This document shows positions 3,452 through 27,606 of a stretch of DNA of 64,000 bases, piece after piece (the first letter of the stretch is position 1; every line of letters begins with the position of its first letter). The notes beneath the pieces are model-generated. The model searched no databases, had not been told where the DNA came from, and worked only from the letters and a program-made list of their open reading frames with translations. A program made the translations under genes and the position numbers. The stretch lies in contig JBDRZL010000002.1 in assembly GCA_039803925.1 (NCBI GenBank), positions 1 to 64,000 on the forward strand, written 5' to 3'. This DNA comes from a candidate division WOR-3 bacterium (GTDB lineage: Bacteria; Hydrothermota; Hydrothermia; Hydrothermales; JAJRUZ01).

Positions 3452-4498
3452 ATGATTATCTTATTCATATTTAATATATTTTATAATGCAAGTATAGGTT
3501 ATAAAGGAATAGCATCTGATTTTGCAATTAATGGTATAGAAACATGGGTTTCCTTTCCACTTGAAAATAAAGTCCTTAATGTAACTGAAATTGAAATAAA
3601 CATAAAACAACCTACTGTGATACTTAATAAAAATGAATTTTTATACATTGTAAATAACTTGGATGATATAATTCATGTTTACAGAAATAAAATATTTTCT
3701 CATAATATAAAATTGCCTCAAGGAGATTATGTTTCAGGATTTATTTCAGGTAACTCACTTTTCCTATTAAGCAGGGAACCCTCAGGGATAATTAGAATAA
3801 ATGGAGATAAAGATTATACAGCTTTTCCTGTTAATTCATATAAGCCGATAGATTTCAGGTTTTATAAAGATAAATTTTATATCCTTGACAGAAAAGGACC
3901 AGCAACTAATTTAAGAATAATGGTTTTTGACAAAGAAGGTAATTATCTTGCTACTTTAGTTGAAATACCCAAAAACTTAGGAGGCGGAATAGAAGTAGCA
4001 GAAATAGATAGAAAAGACCTCCTATTTGTTACTAATTCTCTTATGGGTAAAGTTTATATTTACTCTTTAAATCCTTTTACAAAAATAGACTCTTTTGGAG
4101 CCTATGGTGATTCAATCTATGAATTCAAAACACCCACTAAAATTAAATTTATAGATAATAAACTCTATATTTTAAATCAAAGGAATTCAAGAATAGATAT
4201 CTTTACCTTTCAAAACATTTACACAACCGGAATATCAGAGAAAATTGGAGAACCCTTTGATAATATAAAAATTTTAAACAACAATCTTCATTTAAATCTA
4301 AAGATTCCAGATGGCAATTACACTATTCATGTATTCTCTTTAGATGGAAGAAAAGTTATGAAAATTGATAATATTAAAACTATAAATGGCTTACTTAAAA
4401 AAGAAATTCCCCTATCTTTAAAGAAAGGAATTTATTTTGTTATAATCAAAGAAAAAGAAGGTAAGTTTATAATTCAAAAGGGGGTTAACCTGAAATGA
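3452..4498 (+). CDS. Secreted beta-propeller (NHL-like) protein with T9SS-type C-terminal tail
   Basis: 348 aa. The hydrophobic N-terminus (about residues 1-15) is a probable signal peptide. The middle (about 40-265) is made of repeated strands resembling NHL/6-bladed propeller units, the clearest being the FGAYGDSIYEFKTPTKIKF segment. The last about 75 residues resemble the Por-secretion/T9SS type A sorting domain: IHVFSLDGRKV, then LKKGIYFVIIK, then a short tail. A strong ribosome site (AAGGAGGG) precedes the ATG. It overlaps the multiheme cytochrome gene by 4 nt (ATGA), so the two are expected to be made together and may act at the cell surface. Specific function unknown. Confidence 0.75.
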   Translation: MIILFIFNIFYNASIGYKGIASDFAINGIETWVSFPLENKVLNVTEIEINIKQPTVILNKNEFLYIVNNLDDIIHVYRNKIFSHNIKLPQGDYVSGFISGNSLFLLSREPSGIIRINGDKDYTAFPVNSYKPIDFRFYKDKFYILDRKGPATNLRIMVFDKEGNYLATLVEIPKNLGGGIEVAEIDRKDLLFVTNSLMGKVYIYSLNPFTKIDSFGAYGDSIYEFKTPTKIKFIDNKLYILNQRNSRIDIFTFQNIYTTGISEKIGEPFDNIKILNNNLHLNLKIPDGNYTIHVFSLDGRKVMKIDNIKTINGLLKKEIPLSLKKGIYFVIIKEKEGKFIIQKGVNLK

Positions 4499-6447
4499 AA
4501 AAGAAAAAAATTTATATTTTTATTTTTCCAGCAATAATATTTGCCTTAGATTATCCTCATAATAACAATTCTCCAATAAAAGACTGGGATGTCACCTGTA
4601 GATCCTGTCATGACATCCATAATTCAAATTATCCTTACCTTGGAAAAGTTAATGGGAATTACAATATGTGTTATACTCTGTGTCACAACCCCACAGGAGA
4701 CGCAAAGAATTTTGTAATTGAAGAAAGTAAAAAAGCAATTCCAGGATCAGGAGGTATTCACCACTCTTTTGATGTTCCTGGAGATAATGCAGGCTACGAT
4801 GCAAGCACTTCAAATGCTCAATACAAAAATTATTATGTAAATATAGGTATTGATGCATATAAATTAACCTGCTCCACCTGTCATGAACAGCATAACCATA
4901 ATGGAGGTGTTCCTTTCCTTGTAAACTCATCAGAAACAATGTGCAGGGATTGTCATTCTCCAAGAAATCAAAACATACCACCATATACATCCCACCCTGT
5001 AGGTGTAACAATACCCTCAAATCCCTATTACCATAACCCACAAAATTTACCTCTTGTAGATGGTAATCAAGTTGGTTGTATGACATGTCATGATATTCAT
5101 TATGCTTATTCTGATACAAGTGTTTATGGAACAAGCACTTCTGGAACAACTACATCATTAACAGATAACACAAAGAACTGGCCTACAAACAAATTTATAG
5201 GATGGATTATAAAAATTTATCCAAATGTTAATGATACAGGAAACTGGTATCAGGTAAGAGTGATAACATCAAATACTTCTAATACAATTAACTGGTCAGT
5301 ACCATTATATGGATCAGGAATTTCCTCTGGAAACAGATATGTAATTAAAAGGACAGGAACTGGTAACGGGTATCTCTTAAATCAAGCTATGCATAAATCT
5401 CCTATGAATAACCTTTGCACAAACTGTCATAGTTGTGCTTTGTGTCATGACCCCTCGGATGTCGCCCAAATAGGATCCCATTTTACGAATATTAACACTC
5501 TCTGGCCAGGTGGTCAATATGGTTCTGATTATGCATATATTGACTTAAATGGAAATCTATTACCTCCAGCAAGAAAAAGCGAGGCAACAACAAATTCTCC
5601 TTTACCGAGTTATTTGAGAAACTCATGTTTTAACTGTCACTGGCCACATGGATGGAAAATTCCAAATACTTCACAAAAATATGCGACACTCTTAGTTGAT
5701 AAAGAGGAATTTTTATGTTTTACATGTCATGATTTTAACGGACCTTCTACAAAAAATATAAAGTCAAAATTTGATAATCCTATAAGATGGGTAACAGCGG
5801 CAGTTGGAAACAATAATAATTTAAATCTCAATGATAGACATGATATTCAGGATGAAGCCCAATCAAGGTCAAGAGCAAAAATAGAATGCACAGATTGTCA
5901 TGACCCGCACAGAGCAAATGGAACAATGCCAATCAAAAAAGACCCTGACCCAACTGACGGAAGAGTCCCTGGGACAGGACAGGTTTTACCAGGAGCAGAT
6001 TTTCTTACAGAATGGTGTCTTGATTGCCATGATGGAAGTTTTCCACCTACCATAACACCACCCCAAACTCCTTTAGTTAATGTAAGAAATGCCTATATAA
6101 ATAATGATGTCCATGGAGCAAAAAATGGGAGCCCCACTCTTAAACCGGGTTATGGATGGACAAGTAACCAGATTGTTCCCTGTGCAGCCTGTCATGAGAA
6201 AAAACATATGTCTAACAAACATGAACTTTTTCAGGTAAGAGACACAATTTTTTCGCGTGATGGAACAATACCAATTCCTGATGACGATGGACAATTAGGA
6301 AATGGGTATGACATTCTGGATAACAATATAAGGAATACAGAAATTAATGGATACGATTTCTGTAATACTTGTCATAGAGGTTCAATGGGTAGTAATAGGT
6401 CAAACTGTTTTGCCTCTGGATGCCATCACCATGGAGCTAAATTTTAA
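4495..6447 (+). CDS. Multiheme c-type cytochrome (paired CXXCH family), up to 14 haems
   Basis: 650 aa with an N-terminal signal sequence (lysines, then IYIFIFPAIIFA). I count 12 canonical CXXCH haem sites (first at C35-H39; two nearly fused in the 308-318 stretch) plus a CX3CH (C59-H64) and a terminal CX4CH (C638-H644). Several sites continue as CHxxH, as in doubled-CXXCH cytochromes. Between the fifth and sixth sites (about 209-287) is a haem-free, Thr/Ser/Asn-rich beta domain. The protein should be exported and carry electrons in the periplasm or outside the cell. It is translationally coupled to the propeller protein upstream. The thiol-redox protein CcdA needed for cytochrome c maturation is also encoded in this window, at 62446-63162. 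Confidence 0.9.
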   Translation: MKKKKIYIFIFPAIIFALDYPHNNNSPIKDWDVTCRSCHDIHNSNYPYLGKVNGNYNMCYTLCHNPTGDAKNFVIEESKKAIPGSGGIHHSFDVPGDNAGYDASTSNAQYKNYYVNIGIDAYKLTCSTCHEQHNHNGGVPFLVNSSETMCRDCHSPRNQNIPPYTSHPVGVTIPSNPYYHNPQNLPLVDGNQVGCMTCHDIHYAYSDTSVYGTSTSGTTTSLTDNTKNWPTNKFIGWIIKIYPNVNDTGNWYQVRVITSNTSNTINWSVPLYGSGISSGNRYVIKRTGTGNGYLLNQAMHKSPMNNLCTNCHSCALCHDPSDVAQIGSHFTNINTLWPGGQYGSDYAYIDLNGNLLPPARKSEATTNSPLPSYLRNSCFNCHWPHGWKIPNTSQKYATLLVDKEEFLCFTCHDFNGPSTKNIKSKFDNPIRWVTAAVGNNNNLNLNDRHDIQDEAQSRSRAKIECTDCHDPHRANGTMPIKKDPDPTDGRVPGTGQVLPGADFLTEWCLDCHDGSFPPTITPPQTPLVNVRNAYINNDVHGAKNGSPTLKPGYGWTSNQIVPCAACHEKKHMSNKHELFQVRDTIFSRDGTIPIPDDDGQLGNGYDILDNNIRNTEINGYDFCNTCHRGSMGSNRSNCFASGCHHHGAKF

Positions 6448-24092: not shown

Positions 24093-24644
24093 ATGAAAAA
24101 CTATTTAGAAACAACTATTAATAAGGAAATTAAAGAAAAAATTGAAAAATTTGTAAAAATTTTAAAAGAAGTTAATAAAAGAATAAACCTTATAAGCAAA
24201 AGAGACATAGAAAAAATTTATGAAAAACATATTACAGAATCACTTTTTTATTTAGAAATTTTAAAAGGAAAAAAAATTGTTGATATCGGTTCTGGAGCAG
24301 GTTTTCCAGGCATTGTTCTTGCAATTGTAAGAAAAGACTTTGAACTTTATTTAATTGAAAGAAACAAAAAAAAATCAGAATTTTTAAGAAAAATTAAAAG
24401 GGAACTTAATCTTTTAAATGTAAAAATCTATAACTGCGATTTGAAAAATTTTGAGGAAAAAAATGAATTTGAATTTGTATCAAGAGGTGCAGGTTATGTA
24501 GAGATACTAAAAATTTTAAAAGAAAAAAATTTAAAAGGCTACTTTTATCCAGTTTTACCTGAAAGAGAAGAAAAATTTGAATATAAAACTTTCATAAACA
24601 AATGGACAGGAAAAAAAATAAAAATAGGAATTATTAAAATTTAA
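24093..24644 (+). CDS. rsmG: 16S rRNA (guanine-527-N7)-methyltransferase RsmG
   Basis: 183 aa, a little short against the usual 200-215. NKRINLISKRD, KHITESL and the SAM-binding VDIGSGAGFPG (63-73) are diagnostic of RsmG/GidB, followed by LIERNKKKSEFL and FVSRGAG. It methylates G527 of the small-subunit rRNA. The gene is solitary, with a promoter-like TATA-rich leader and no strong ribosome site, and overlaps the repressor gene tail-to-tail by 4 nt. Confidence 0.92.
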   Translation: MKNYLETTINKEIKEKIEKFVKILKEVNKRINLISKRDIEKIYEKHITESLFYLEILKGKKIVDIGSGAGFPGIVLAIVRKDFELYLIERNKKKSEFLRKIKRELNLLNVKIYNCDLKNFEEKNEFEFVSRGAGYVEILKILKEKNLKGYFYPVLPEREEKFEYKTFINKWTGKKIKIGIIKI

Positions 24645-25258
24645 TCAAAAAATTTCAATGATAAAACAAAAATTACCTTACCTATTATATGGGTTTCCTC
24701 ATCTGGTTTTAAAATCCCATACTTTTTGTTTTCAGAAATAAGAAAAAAATTATTTTTTCTTTTTATCAATCTCTTTAAAAGATAATCTGTTGAACCGATT
24801 CTCAAAAGGACAATATCTCCTAAAGTATATTCACCCCTTTCAACCACAACAAAATCACCCTCATTTATCAAAGGCTCCATACTATCAGAACTTACTTCAA
24901 GAACAAAAAATTTTTCTTTATTTTTCAATATTCTTTTTTTTATACGCTCAGGTAAAATAGATAAAGGAAACTCAATCTCTTTTATCCTTTCTGCTGAATC
25001 AAAATAAATTTCCCTTTTACCAGCACCTACCTTACCCATTAAAGGCAAATTTAAAAACTTTTCCTCTTCTAAAAAATAAGAAATACTTATTCCAAATATA
25101 TCCGAAAGCTTTTTCAAATCAGAAAAAGAAGGCCTCCTTTCTCCCCTCTCCCACCTTGAAACCGTAAGCAACTTATAACCAAACAAAGAAGCAAACTCTT
25201 TCTGCGTCAGACCCTTATTTTCCCTCAATTCCTTTATTTTTTTCCCAATAATATCCAT
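24641..25258 (-). CDS. XRE-family repressor with S24 (LexA-like) autoprotease domain
   Basis: 205 aa. Residues 5-60 form a lambda-type (XRE) helix-turn-helix with LTQKEFASLFGYKLLTVSRWERG. Residues about 72-205 form a Peptidase S24 domain: cleavage bond Ala79-Gly80 in GKVGAGKRE, nucleophile Ser126 in SSDSMEP, and base Lys162 in YLLKRL. All catalytic parts are intact, so RecA-filament-stimulated self-cleavage is plausible. It diverges from the UmuD'-umuC operon across two near-perfect palindromes, one overlapping each promoter. The simplest reading is an SOS-like repressor controlling itself and the mutagenic polymerase. It is not the canonical winged-helix LexA. Confidence 0.88.
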   Translation of the reverse strand: MDIIGKKIKELRENKGLTQKEFASLFGYKLLTVSRWERGERRPSFSDLKKLSDIFGISISYFLEEEKFLNLPLMGKVGAGKREIYFDSAERIKEIEFPLSILPERIKKRILKNKEKFFVLEVSSDSMEPLINEGDFVVVERGEYTLGDIVLLRIGSTDYLLKRLIKRKNNFFLISENKKYGILKPDEETHIIGKVIFVLSLKFFD

Positions 25259-25263
25259 TCTTA

Positions 25264-25293
25264 ATTATACCAAAAAAATTTAAATTTATCCAA
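25264..25293 (-). promoter_or_regulatory. Promoter of the S24 repressor gene, predicted leaderless
   Basis: Minus strand TTGGAT (25293-25288), 18-bp spacer, TATAAT (25269-25264), then 5 nt to the ATG at 25258. The -35 box lies inside operator 1, so the repressor should control its own synthesis. Confidence 0.6.
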
Positions 25294-25303
25294 TTCGGAT
25301 TAA
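25286..25303. promoter_or_regulatory. SOS-like operator 1
   Basis: TTATCCAATTCGGATTAA. The core ATCCAA-T-TCGGAT is a 13-bp palindrome with one mismatch. It covers the -35 box of the repressor gene. A second copy lies 28 bp away centre to centre. Confidence 0.7.
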
Positions 25304-25304
25304 T

Positions 25305-25334
25305 TTGATTTATTTATCCAATTTGGATTAAAAT
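25305..25334 (+). promoter_or_regulatory. Promoter of the UmuD'-umuC operon, predicted leaderless
   Basis: TTGATT (25305-25310), 18-bp spacer, TAAAAT (25329-25334), then 6 nt to the ATG at 25341. Operator 2 fills the spacer and touches the -10 box, so bound repressor should block polymerase. Confidence 0.6.
25314..25331. promoter_or_regulatory. SOS-like operator 2
   Basis: TTATCCAATTTGGATTAA. The core ATCCAA-T-TTGGAT is a perfect 13-bp palindrome around one base. It lies between the -35 and -10 boxes of the UmuD'-umuC promoter. Confidence 0.7.
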
Positions 25335-25340
25335 TAAAAT

Positions 25341-25703
25341 ATGGAAAGAGTAAAAGTTATTTATACTGGTTTTCCTTCACCTGCAAGGGATTATGAAGAA
25401 AAGCCTCTTGATTTAAATAAATTTATAGTTTCAAATCCCTTTTCCACTTTTTTTATGAGAGTAGAAGAAGATTTTGAAAGGGAGGGTATTAAAAAGGGTG
25501 ATATAATTGTTGTGGATGCATCAATTGAAAAATTTGAAAATAGGTTAATTGTAGCAGAATTTAAAGGTGATTTTGTAATAGGAAGAATTATAAAAGAAAA
25601 AGGTAAAAAATTTTTTATTTCAAAAAGTATAAAAGAAGAAATAGGAGAAAATATTGAGTTTGAAGTTTTTGGTGTTATAACTTTTCTAATAAGGAGGCTT
25701 TAA
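25341..25703 (+). CDS. UmuD'-like polymerase V accessory protein, catalytic residues lost
   Basis: 120 aa. The segment GFPSPARDYEEKPLDLNKFIV matches the UmuD sequence that starts right after its self-cleavage point (GFPSPAADY), but only 9 residues precede it, against 24 in E. coli UmuD. Where UmuD has GDSM with nucleophile Ser60, this protein reads EEDFEREG (residues 42-49), and the position of Lys97 is Gly81 in DFVIGRII. So it looks like the processed UmuD' form, made directly and unable to cleave. It is followed by umuC after 1 bp with an AAGGAGG site. It probably dimerises on UmuC; this is inferred from family knowledge. Confidence 0.82.
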   Translation: MERVKVIYTGFPSPARDYEEKPLDLNKFIVSNPFSTFFMRVEEDFEREGIKKGDIIVVDASIEKFENRLIVAEFKGDFVIGRIIKEKGKKFFISKSIKEEIGENIEFEVFGVITFLIRRL

Positions 25704-25704
25704 A

Positions 25705-26961
25705 ATGGCTATAGGTGTTATTGATTGTGATAACTTTTATGTTTCCTGCGAAAGAATTTTTAGACCTGATCTTAAAAAAGTTCCCTGTATTGTTCTTTCA
25801 AATAACGATGGCTGCATAATAGCAAGGTCAAAGGAAGTTAAAGAAATGGGTATTCCAATGGGGGCTCCTTATTTTAAATATAAGAATTTAATTGAAAAAA
25901 ATAATATCTTTTTATTCTCATCAAACTACACTTTATATGAAGAAATTTCAAATAGAGTAATGGGAATAATAAAAAGTTTTACAAAAAAAGTAGAAATATA
26001 TTCTATTGATGAAGCCTTTATTGATCTTGAAGGAATTGAAAATAAAGAAGAGTTTGTAAAAAATATTAAAGAAAAAATTGAAAAATGGGTAAAGATTCCT
26101 GTTTCCATAGGAATAGGTGAAACAAAGGTTCTTGCAAAAATTGCTCTAAAATTTGCCAAAAAAGATGAAAATAAAAAAATTTTTAATATAATAAATCATC
26201 CTGAAAAAGATGAATTATTAAAGAAAATAGATGTGGAAGATATATGGGGAATAGGGCCTGTATCAGCAAAATTTTTAAGAGAAAAAGGAATTTTTAATGC
26301 CTATCAATTTAAAAATTTGAATGAGGAATGGATAAGAAAAAACCTCACTCTTAGAGGATTAAAAATACTTAAGGAAATTAAAGAAATAAAGTGTTTTGAA
26401 ATAGAAGGAAATTTAGAAAGAAAGGGTATAAGTGCATCAAGAACTTTTGGAGAAAAAATAGAAAAATTTGAAGAACTAAAAGAGGCAATTACATATCTTA
26501 TATCAGTTGCAGCAGAAAGATTAAGAAGCGAAAACCTTCTTGCCTCTAAACTTCATATCTTTATAATGAGCTCCCCCTTTGAAAAAAATTTTTATTTTAA
26601 AAATATGGGAATAAATTTACCTGCACCAACAGCTTATACACCAGACCTTGTTAAATTCAGTGAAAAAATTCTAAAAAAAATTTTCAAAGAAGGGATAAAA
26701 TATAAAAAAGCGGGTATTTATTTTCACGGACTTATAAAAGACAATAAGAAAATCAAAAGTATATTTTCTGATAAATTTACTTTTACTGATAAAAAGAAAA
26801 ATATAATTTCAACTGTAGATAAAATAAATAAAATATTCGGAAGAGAAACCATTTATCTTGCTGGTGAATTTATAACAAAAAAATGGGAGATGAAACAAAT
26901 TTATAGATCAAAAAGATATACCACAAGATGGGAAGATATAAAAGGGGTAAAAGTTTTATAA
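25705..26961 (+). CDS. umuC: Y-family DNA polymerase V catalytic subunit UmuC
   Basis: 418 aa, full length. Catalytic acidic residues Asp7 (VIDCDNFYVSCER), Asp102 and Glu103 (YSIDEAFIDL) are all present, with NNDGCIIARS of the finger region, helix-hairpin-helix DIWGIGPVSAKFL, the little-finger domain, and the C-terminal DUF4113-like tail that ends in IYRSKRYTTRWEDI. It performs translesion synthesis with its UmuD'-type partner encoded just upstream. Regulated by the divergent S24 repressor through the twin operators. Confidence 0.94.
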   Translation: MAIGVIDCDNFYVSCERIFRPDLKKVPCIVLSNNDGCIIARSKEVKEMGIPMGAPYFKYKNLIEKNNIFLFSSNYTLYEEISNRVMGIIKSFTKKVEIYSIDEAFIDLEGIENKEEFVKNIKEKIEKWVKIPVSIGIGETKVLAKIALKFAKKDENKKIFNIINHPEKDELLKKIDVEDIWGIGPVSAKFLREKGIFNAYQFKNLNEEWIRKNLTLRGLKILKEIKEIKCFEIEGNLERKGISASRTFGEKIEKFEELKEAITYLISVAAERLRSENLLASKLHIFIMSSPFEKNFYFKNMGINLPAPTAYTPDLVKFSEKILKKIFKEGIKYKKAGIYFHGLIKDNKKIKSIFSDKFTFTDKKKNIISTVDKINKIFGRETIYLAGEFITKKWEMKQIYRSKRYTTRWEDIKGVKVL

Positions 26962-26964
26962 ATA

Positions 26965-27606
26965 TTAAAAGGGACTCATTCCAAGAAAAAGACGAGAGAC
27001 CAAACTGGCAGGTAAAAAAACTAAAATTTCAAATAAAGGTATTCTTAAAAAACTTGAAATAAATATAATTCCTGCAAGTAAAAAAAATCCATAGGGCTCA
27101 ATTTCCTTATACCTTAATTTCCATTCAAAGGGTAAAAAAAGTATAAGAATTTTTGAACCATCTAAAGGAGGTATGGGCAATAAATTAAAAAAAGCAAGAA
27201 TTAAGTTTATTACATAAGCTGAAAGAAAAATTTTATAAAGATAGAATAAAAAAAGAATTTCCGTAAAAGGAAAAAGAAAAAAAATTCTCAAAATCAGGGA
27301 AATTAGAAAAGCAAGAATTAAATTGGAAAAAGGACCAAAAATTGCAACCTTTGCCATATCCTTTTCAGGGTTTTTAAAATAATAGGGATCAACAGGAACA
27401 GGTTTTGCCCATCCAATATGAACAAGAAATAAAAATATAAAACCAAGAGGATCAATATGGGAAAGTGGATTTAAAGTTAACCTTCCTGAAAATTTCGCTG
27501 TAGGATCACCTAATTTGTATGCAATTAAAGCATGCGAAAACTCATGTATGGTCAGTGCTATTAAAATTCCAGGTAAAAAAATCAAAAGGTTTACAATATC
27601 AAACAT
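26965..27606 (-). CDS. Site-2 protease family (M50) membrane metalloprotease
   Basis: 213 aa with about 5-6 hydrophobic segments. The zinc site HEFSH (His21, Glu22, His25) is near the N-terminus and the second motif NLLPIPPLDGSK supplies the third ligand. It has no PDZ domain, so it belongs to the short M50 (Rip/YwhC-like) group that cuts transmembrane peptides. Last gene of the long minus-strand run and convergent with umuC after 3 bp. Confidence 0.87.
   Translation of the reverse strand: MFDIVNLLIFLPGILIALTIHEFSHALIAYKLGDPTAKFSGRLTLNPLSHIDPLGFIFLFLVHIGWAKPVPVDPYYFKNPEKDMAKVAIFGPFSNLILAFLISLILRIFFLFPFTEILFLFYLYKIFLSAYVINLILAFFNLLPIPPLDGSKILILFLPFEWKLRYKEIEPYGFFLLAGIIFISSFLRIPLFEILVFLPASLVSRLFLGMSPF

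Follow-up and report, generated by a model that had tools for sequence, protein, structure and literature searches.

How is a DNA polymerase V (pol V) activated when its UmuD subunit is encoded without the arm that is normally removed and without the residues that normally remove it? This question is raised by a gene at 25341..25703 on the + strand of a 64,000-nucleotide stretch of DNA (the window; positions 1 to 64,000 of contig JBDRZL010000002.1, assembly GCA_039803925.1) from an uncultured candidate division WOR-3 bacterium of the Hydrothermota, labeled G000 here. The gene, which we call umuD', stands next to umuC and is divergent from a gene for a repressor of the XRE-S24 type. We consider it rather likely that the three genes form a self-contained, LexA-independent SOS mutagenesis cassette, in which an HdiR-like repressor senses damage and UmuD' is made ready for use. 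The original prediction, made from the window alone, had proposed that pol V activation skips the RecA-driven processing of UmuD and relies on transcription alone.

A UmuD core without arm or dyad

The umuD' open reading frame (ORF) starts with ATG and codes for 120 residues. The conserved GFPSPA glycine is residue 10, with M1 nine residues earlier, so that the protein has no precursor and yet carries nine extra residues where HumD of phage P1 begins MGFPSPA. No longer arm is readable in the same frame, as a stop lies one codon 5' of the ATG. Together with the predicted promoter-operator region directly upstream, this stop led us to reject a long arm hidden in another frame or behind an upstream start. 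In an alignment of 12 sequences that includes Escherichia UmuD (L095), the GDSM block is matched by -EDF with a one-residue deletion; residues 43-46 read EDFE in place of GDSM, and the nucleophilic serine is lost. In the same alignment the lysine of the Escherichia TVKK motif is matched by Gly81 (FVIGRI). The GFPSPA...PLDL segment is retained. Judged from the sequence, RecA-driven self-cleavage of this UmuD cannot occur, because both the arm and the dyad are truly absent.

The rest of the protein is UmuD-like. It matches Pfam PF00717 with 36.9 bits (cut-off 23.3). Its best NCBIfam match is the UmuD family NF007621 (88.2 bits, under the curated cut-off of 110), and it scores 73.7 bits with the HumD family NF051876, under the curated cut-off of 120. 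An AlphaFold2 model based on a 48-sequence alignment has a mean predicted local distance difference test score of 85, with low values mainly in the first 20 residues. When the model was compared with PDB structures by Foldseek, the top matches were the E. coli UmuD' entries 1umu and 1ay9 (template modeling score 0.72-0.75 by query length), and LexA and CI domains ranked below them. Of the features that characterize UmuD, the locus therefore has the core sequence, the fold and an adjacent umuC, and it lacks both the S60/K97 self-cleavage dyad and the cleavable arm of ~24 residues. The nearly absent arm, the two replaced active-site positions and the well-kept C-terminal core had all been read from the window in the original prediction, and the ORF, the alignment and the model bear these readings out. 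Since the ClpX recognition sequence, by which UmuD delivers UmuD' to degradation, sits in the arm of the E. coli protein (PMC5342242), UmuD' turnover must differ here.

The partner gene is intact, as had also been proposed. umuC (25705..26961, + strand) is separated from the umuD' stop codon by one base and codes for a full-length Y-family polymerase of 418 residues, with Pfam domains IMS (138.7 bits), IMS_C and DUF4113 (59.1 bits at residues 368-412). The active-site D and the SIDEAF motif (D/DE motifs) are conserved. Both sequence hallmarks of a pol V polymerase are present, namely an intact active site and DUF4113 with its RecA-NT motif and UmuD'-binding tail; in this region the RecA-NT motif and the C-terminal tail have been reported to bind RecA and UmuD' (PMC6511836).

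The divergent repressor and the proposed switch

The original prediction missed the gene on the other side of umuD'. It occupies 24641..25258 on the - strand, divergent from umuD'C, and encodes a 205-residue protein with HTH_3 (61.4 bits) and Peptidase_S24 (72.7 bits) domains. Its dyad, assigned by eye against LexA/UmuD motifs, is intact (Ser126 in SDSM, Lys162 in LLKR), and Ala79-Gly80 is found at the hinge (LMGKVGAG). The sequence features expected of an HdiR-like protein are present, namely a helix-turn-helix (HTH) of the XRE/Cro-CI type and an S24 domain with serine, lysine and Ala-Gly hinge. On sequence grounds, this layout is that of a RecA-cleavable repressor.

Two near-identical palindromes between the divergent genes are predicted operators. 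Operator 1 (ATCCAATTCGGATTA, 25288..25302) overlaps the predicted -35 element of the repressor promoter, and operator 2 (ATCCAATTTGGATTA, 25316..25330) lies within the spacer of the predicted umuD'C promoter. Throughout the 1.84-Mb G000 assembly exact matches occur at these two sites only, and G001, another species of the genus, has both in identical form. The putative promoters, both of sigma-70 type and both consensus matches only, are TGGATA-17-TATAAT with TG for the repressor (25264..25292, - strand; 10/12 matches) and TTGATT-18-TAAAAT for umuD'C (25305..25334, + strand); three sigma-70-type sites were found in the region, compared with 1.2 expected in shuffles. The predicted umuD'C -10 element ends 6 bases before the ATG, and the umuD'C and repressor mRNAs may both be leaderless.

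The G000 genome encodes RecA. LexA, defined by the winged-helix domain PF01726 plus S24, was not found in it apart from a weak, partial match of 111 residues under the cut-off. Likewise, the genome yielded no S24 protein besides UmuD' and the repressor and no Y-family (IMS) polymerase besides UmuC. A full-length UmuD elsewhere, which the original prediction had named as evidence against itself, was not found in the 96% complete assembly.

From these elements we propose the following mechanism. The HdiR/CI-like repressor would bind both predicted operators and repress itself together with umuD'C. Upon damage, RecA filaments on single-stranded DNA would cause the repressor to cut itself at Ala79-Gly80 through Ser126/Lys162, and umuD'C would be transcribed once the repressor is cleaved. 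UmuD', made directly, uncleavable and nearly arm-less, could immediately form a pol V-type UmuD'2C complex with UmuC. There would be no slow, RecA-driven cleavage of UmuD, the step that delays pol V in E. coli. UmuC would then bind RecA through DUF4113, and its assembly into a RecA-bound mutasome is probably still needed. Because UmuD' is ready-made and the switch apparently lies on the repressor, the polymerase would be controlled mainly by switching on the genes and not by cutting a protein. The proposal that RecA-driven processing is skipped thus holds for UmuD itself, whereas RecA control has most likely moved to the repressor; reliance on transcription alone was an overstatement, given the DUF4113 that UmuC keeps.

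The three-gene cassette (24641..26961) is flanked by rsmG (24093-24644) on one side and an M50 protease gene (26965-27606) on the other. The rsmG and repressor genes overlap tail to tail by four bases (window 24641-24644). Two genomes lack the cassette at the corresponding site and have rsmG next to the M50 gene, namely G002 of the same genus and G003 of the same family; no S24 or Y-family proteins were found in either genome. The rsmG-M50 gap of G002 (159 bp; L239 1336-1494) contains a probable decayed umuC relic, SSLAAERIKRENLL, corresponding to LISVAAERLRSENLL of UmuC. The score of the relic was reached by 3/2000 shuffles, some of which may have failed and returned the original sequence. 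This modest evidence suggests that the cassette is ancestral and was lost in G002 rather than recently inserted. A search of viral contigs for the repressor gave one weak, HTH-only match and identified no mobile carrier.

Relatives in the phylum and competing explanations

Relatives were collected by a UmuD-family search of 147 genomes of the phylum, which led to 11 species whose GFPSPA-type UmuD was read. In a scan of genome contigs, the window UmuD' alone as the query found no relatives, and a scan with an alignment of UmuD' proteins without the dyad ('dead') retrieved mostly UmuD with the dyad ('live'). Both dyad residues are kept in 7/11 species (G045, G048, G074, G075, G076, G143 and G144). 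Both residues and most of the arm are lost in the other four, namely G000, G001, G007 and G014. G007, from the same class, is only distantly related to the window locus and has the same cassette architecture: UmuD' (GSGL, VVRR), umuC and a divergent XRE-S24 repressor with SDSM...VVKR and an AAG hinge. No further S24 proteins were found in G007, and its divergent promoter region contains one imperfect palindrome, ATACACCCGATGGGTATAT, a candidate operator. G014 encodes UmuD' (GTGL, VVRR) with umuC; an XRE-S24-like gene (L252) is unlinked. The same genome also has a LexA-like protein (L229; C32, + strand ORF near 1440-2120; PF01726 70 bits), whose S24 half reads GEPSSQ in place of GDSM, without a serine, and VIRQF at the lysine position. 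This LexA looks unable to cleave itself, in a genome with a dead UmuD'.

In the UmuC tree, G000 and G001 group with G076, which has a live UmuD, while G007 and G014 make a separate, well-supported pair. The well-supported branches force two changes, and the approximately unbiased test argues against a single clade of dead loci (p 0.026). The dyad therefore appears to have been lost at least twice in the phylum, apart from the phage HumD line. In G076 (genome 92% complete) the sole S24 protein found is the live UmuD. Set against the window, this suggests that the dyad is kept in either UmuD or the repressor, as one contrast and not as proof. None of the other umuDC loci that were inspected has an XRE-S24 gene immediately beside a live UmuD; the S24 genes near live UmuD are upstream ones of the winged HTH LexA type (4 loci: L077, L087, L096 and L125) or distant ones. 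This comparison is suggestive only, as the sequences behind the profile include the repressors of the window and of G007 themselves. Whether the dyad moved twice within one phylum from the polymerase subunit to the neighboring repressor, so that bacteria lacking any further S24 protein would have chromosomal pol V cassettes of a one-step kind, in which damage control would reside in transcription and RecA-UmuC binding, we consider evenly balanced.

Variation in the dyad was also seen in other loci. In a metagenome-assembled genome (MAG) of Cyanobium (L114), tandem UmuD genes (3509-4375 and 4955-5587) lie 5' of umuC. In the first of them Ala replaces the serine and Arg the lysine, whereas the second, without GFPSPA, is live (GPSM, TLKR); they are possibly a live/dead pair. 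In two Deltaproteobacteria MAGs (L088 3920-4348 and L108 2819-3247), the UmuD beside umuC has a full arm and an intact serine, with Arg for Lys (TVRRIR), and would be uncleavable if Arg cannot substitute for Lys.

Several points weigh against a ready-made UmuD' under repressor control. The nine residues before the glycine mean that, as read, this is not a clean UmuD' N-terminus. E. coli UmuD without residues 1-17 (seven left) is uncleavable and only weakly mutagenic (PMC5342242), and in a published model of pol V the free N-terminus of UmuD' lies close to the active site of UmuC (PMC11791011). UmuC has a weak clamp motif here (KIKSIF versus QLNLF in E. coli-type UmuC). G014, the third dead locus, has no repressor gene adjacent to it, and the adjacency comparison draws on a partly self-derived profile and on two dead loci of independent origin, of which one belongs to a fragmented MAG. 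Finally, in a genome that is 96% complete, the absence of lexA is not fully certain. As for the longer terminus, UmuC may have adapted to it, or some trimming may take place.

Such trimming is the core of the alternative that survives best, although we still regard it as unlikely: UmuD' would be processed in trans, with the S24 domain of the repressor or a host peptidase removing the nine residues, and a cleavage step would remain. The existence of the extension is in its favor, as is its variability, since 2/9 positions differ between G000 and G001 in this part compared with 3/111 in the rest. Against it, the junction is Thr-Gly, unlike the well-known S24 cleavage sites, which are Ala-Gly or Cys-Gly. 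Moreover, no arm is left to dock in an active site, and the published description of P1 HumD presents it as activated from the start, with no processing (PMC7092418).

It is more doubtful still that umuD' is a decaying pseudogene, which lost its arm and active site by drift while umuC works alone or decays as well. The cassette does seem dispensable, being absent from G002 and G003, with the probable umuC relic in the former. However, the frame is intact in two species: umuD' of G001 shares the deletion and is 96% identical at the amino acid level, and the umuD' start and the operator region recur on another contig of G001. (The two contig ends, L004 and L014 on C16 and C24, overlap and differ slightly in the umuD' start and the intergenic region, which suggests two strains within the G001 assembly.) Between G000 and G001, umuD' has 6 nonsynonymous changes in 288 sites (nonsynonymous rate, dN, 0.021) and 5 synonymous changes in 72. 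Because the synonymous rate (dS) of three neighboring genes is 0.20-0.22, a neutral umuD' would carry ~50 nonsynonymous changes. The dN/dS ratio of umuD', based on its own few changes, is 0.29, compared with ratios of 0.11 (rsmG), 0.14 (umuC) and 0.19 (repressor gene). umuD' is under purifying selection, as the original prediction had expected. The retained GFPSPA...PLDL segment, core fold and operon structure, and the same dual loss elsewhere beside an intact umuC, also speak against drift, and on conservation we rejected the pseudogene reading.

We give equally little credence to the idea that UmuD' is not a polymerase subunit and mainly partners the S24 repressor, as a hetero-dimer, co-repressor or anti-repressor. 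Both proteins have the S24 fold and are encoded in one cassette, and the UmuD-derived repressor of Acinetobacter uses a co-repressor, DdrR (PMC7273328). On the other hand, the residues of UmuD' follow UmuD and not repressors, as its best NCBIfam match indicates, and umuD' is one base away from umuC in an operon. The tail at the C-terminus of UmuC, a reported binding site for UmuD' (PMC6511836), is preserved, and G014 has a dead UmuD' with umuC and no adjacent repressor. A sequencing or assembly artefact, for which one could cite the draft state of the genomes, their many contigs and the split of the G001 locus over two overlapping contigs, is hardly credible and was rejected, because a frameshift or assembly error is very unlikely given the stop one codon upstream and the agreement, down to the deletion, between independently assembled genomes of two species, and both active-site residues are replaced in frame, with comparable losses in G007 and G014.

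Comparison with known systems

If the proposed ready-made UmuD'C cassette is real, its two halves have separate precedents. The closest counterpart of UmuD' is HumD of P1, a directly made UmuD' described as already activated UmuD (PMC7092418), together with N15 gp26 and phiKO2 gp23. All are arm-less UmuD cores (MGFPSPA...) with a deletion at the same place of the nucleophile block. The N15 and phiKO2 proteins also lack the serine, but all three keep the lysine, whereas both residues are lost here. Furthermore, the phage genes have no umuC beside them, in contrast to the operon described here, and the P1 and phiKO2 records annotate an upstream LexA site, whereas no LexA was found in G000. On viral contig L212 (2995-4648), an arm-less, dyad-less HumD-like gene overlaps a umuC that groups with Escherichia UmuC; by its gene content, this is a phage version of a ready-made UmuD'C.

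The repressor half resembles HdiR-umuC of Lactococcus and Streptococcus, where an XRE-HTH plus S24 repressor controls a UmuC-type polymerase in LexA-less bacteria (PMC8565304). In L. lactis, HdiR self-cleaves with RecA and regulates its own expression as well as that of a umuC homolog, its regulon is small and consists mainly of error-prone polymerase genes, and in S. uberis it controls only a mutagenic cassette (PMC8565304). Unlike in these systems, the operon presumed to be controlled here begins with umuD'. Acinetobacter UmuDAb/DdrR is likewise LexA-less, and its umuDC genes have a dedicated S24 regulator that is cleavable (PMC8565304, PMC7273328), but in our case UmuD' lacks protease function and the repressor is a distinct protein of the XRE-S24 type. 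E. coli umuDC (pol V) and its plasmid and ICE relatives mucAB and rumAB share the umuD-umuC order, the UmuC domains including DUF4113 and the UmuD' fold, and rumAB is also under a CI-type repressor, SetR, with LexA and CroS (PMC9578287). Their UmuD proteins, in contrast, carry Ser/Lys and are first made as precursors, from which an arm of ~24 residues can be cleaved.

Directly made UmuD' and HdiR-controlled umuC are thus each known, and their combination in one chromosomal cassette is new as far as we found: the literature consulted, which covered few subscription papers, gave no report of a chromosomal cassette in which umuC and a dedicated XRE-S24 repressor accompany a dyad-less, nearly arm-less UmuD'. 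In E. coli, slow UmuD cleavage is considered partly responsible for the timing of pol V mutagenesis. The cassette, if it works as proposed, would be a natural test of whether a mutagenic polymerase needs that delay to be used safely or whether the delay is only one gating option. It would also add a LexA-less minimal SOS unit of ~2.3 kb outside Streptococcaceae and Moraxellaceae, the two families with described small S24-controlled polymerase regulons (PMC8565304).
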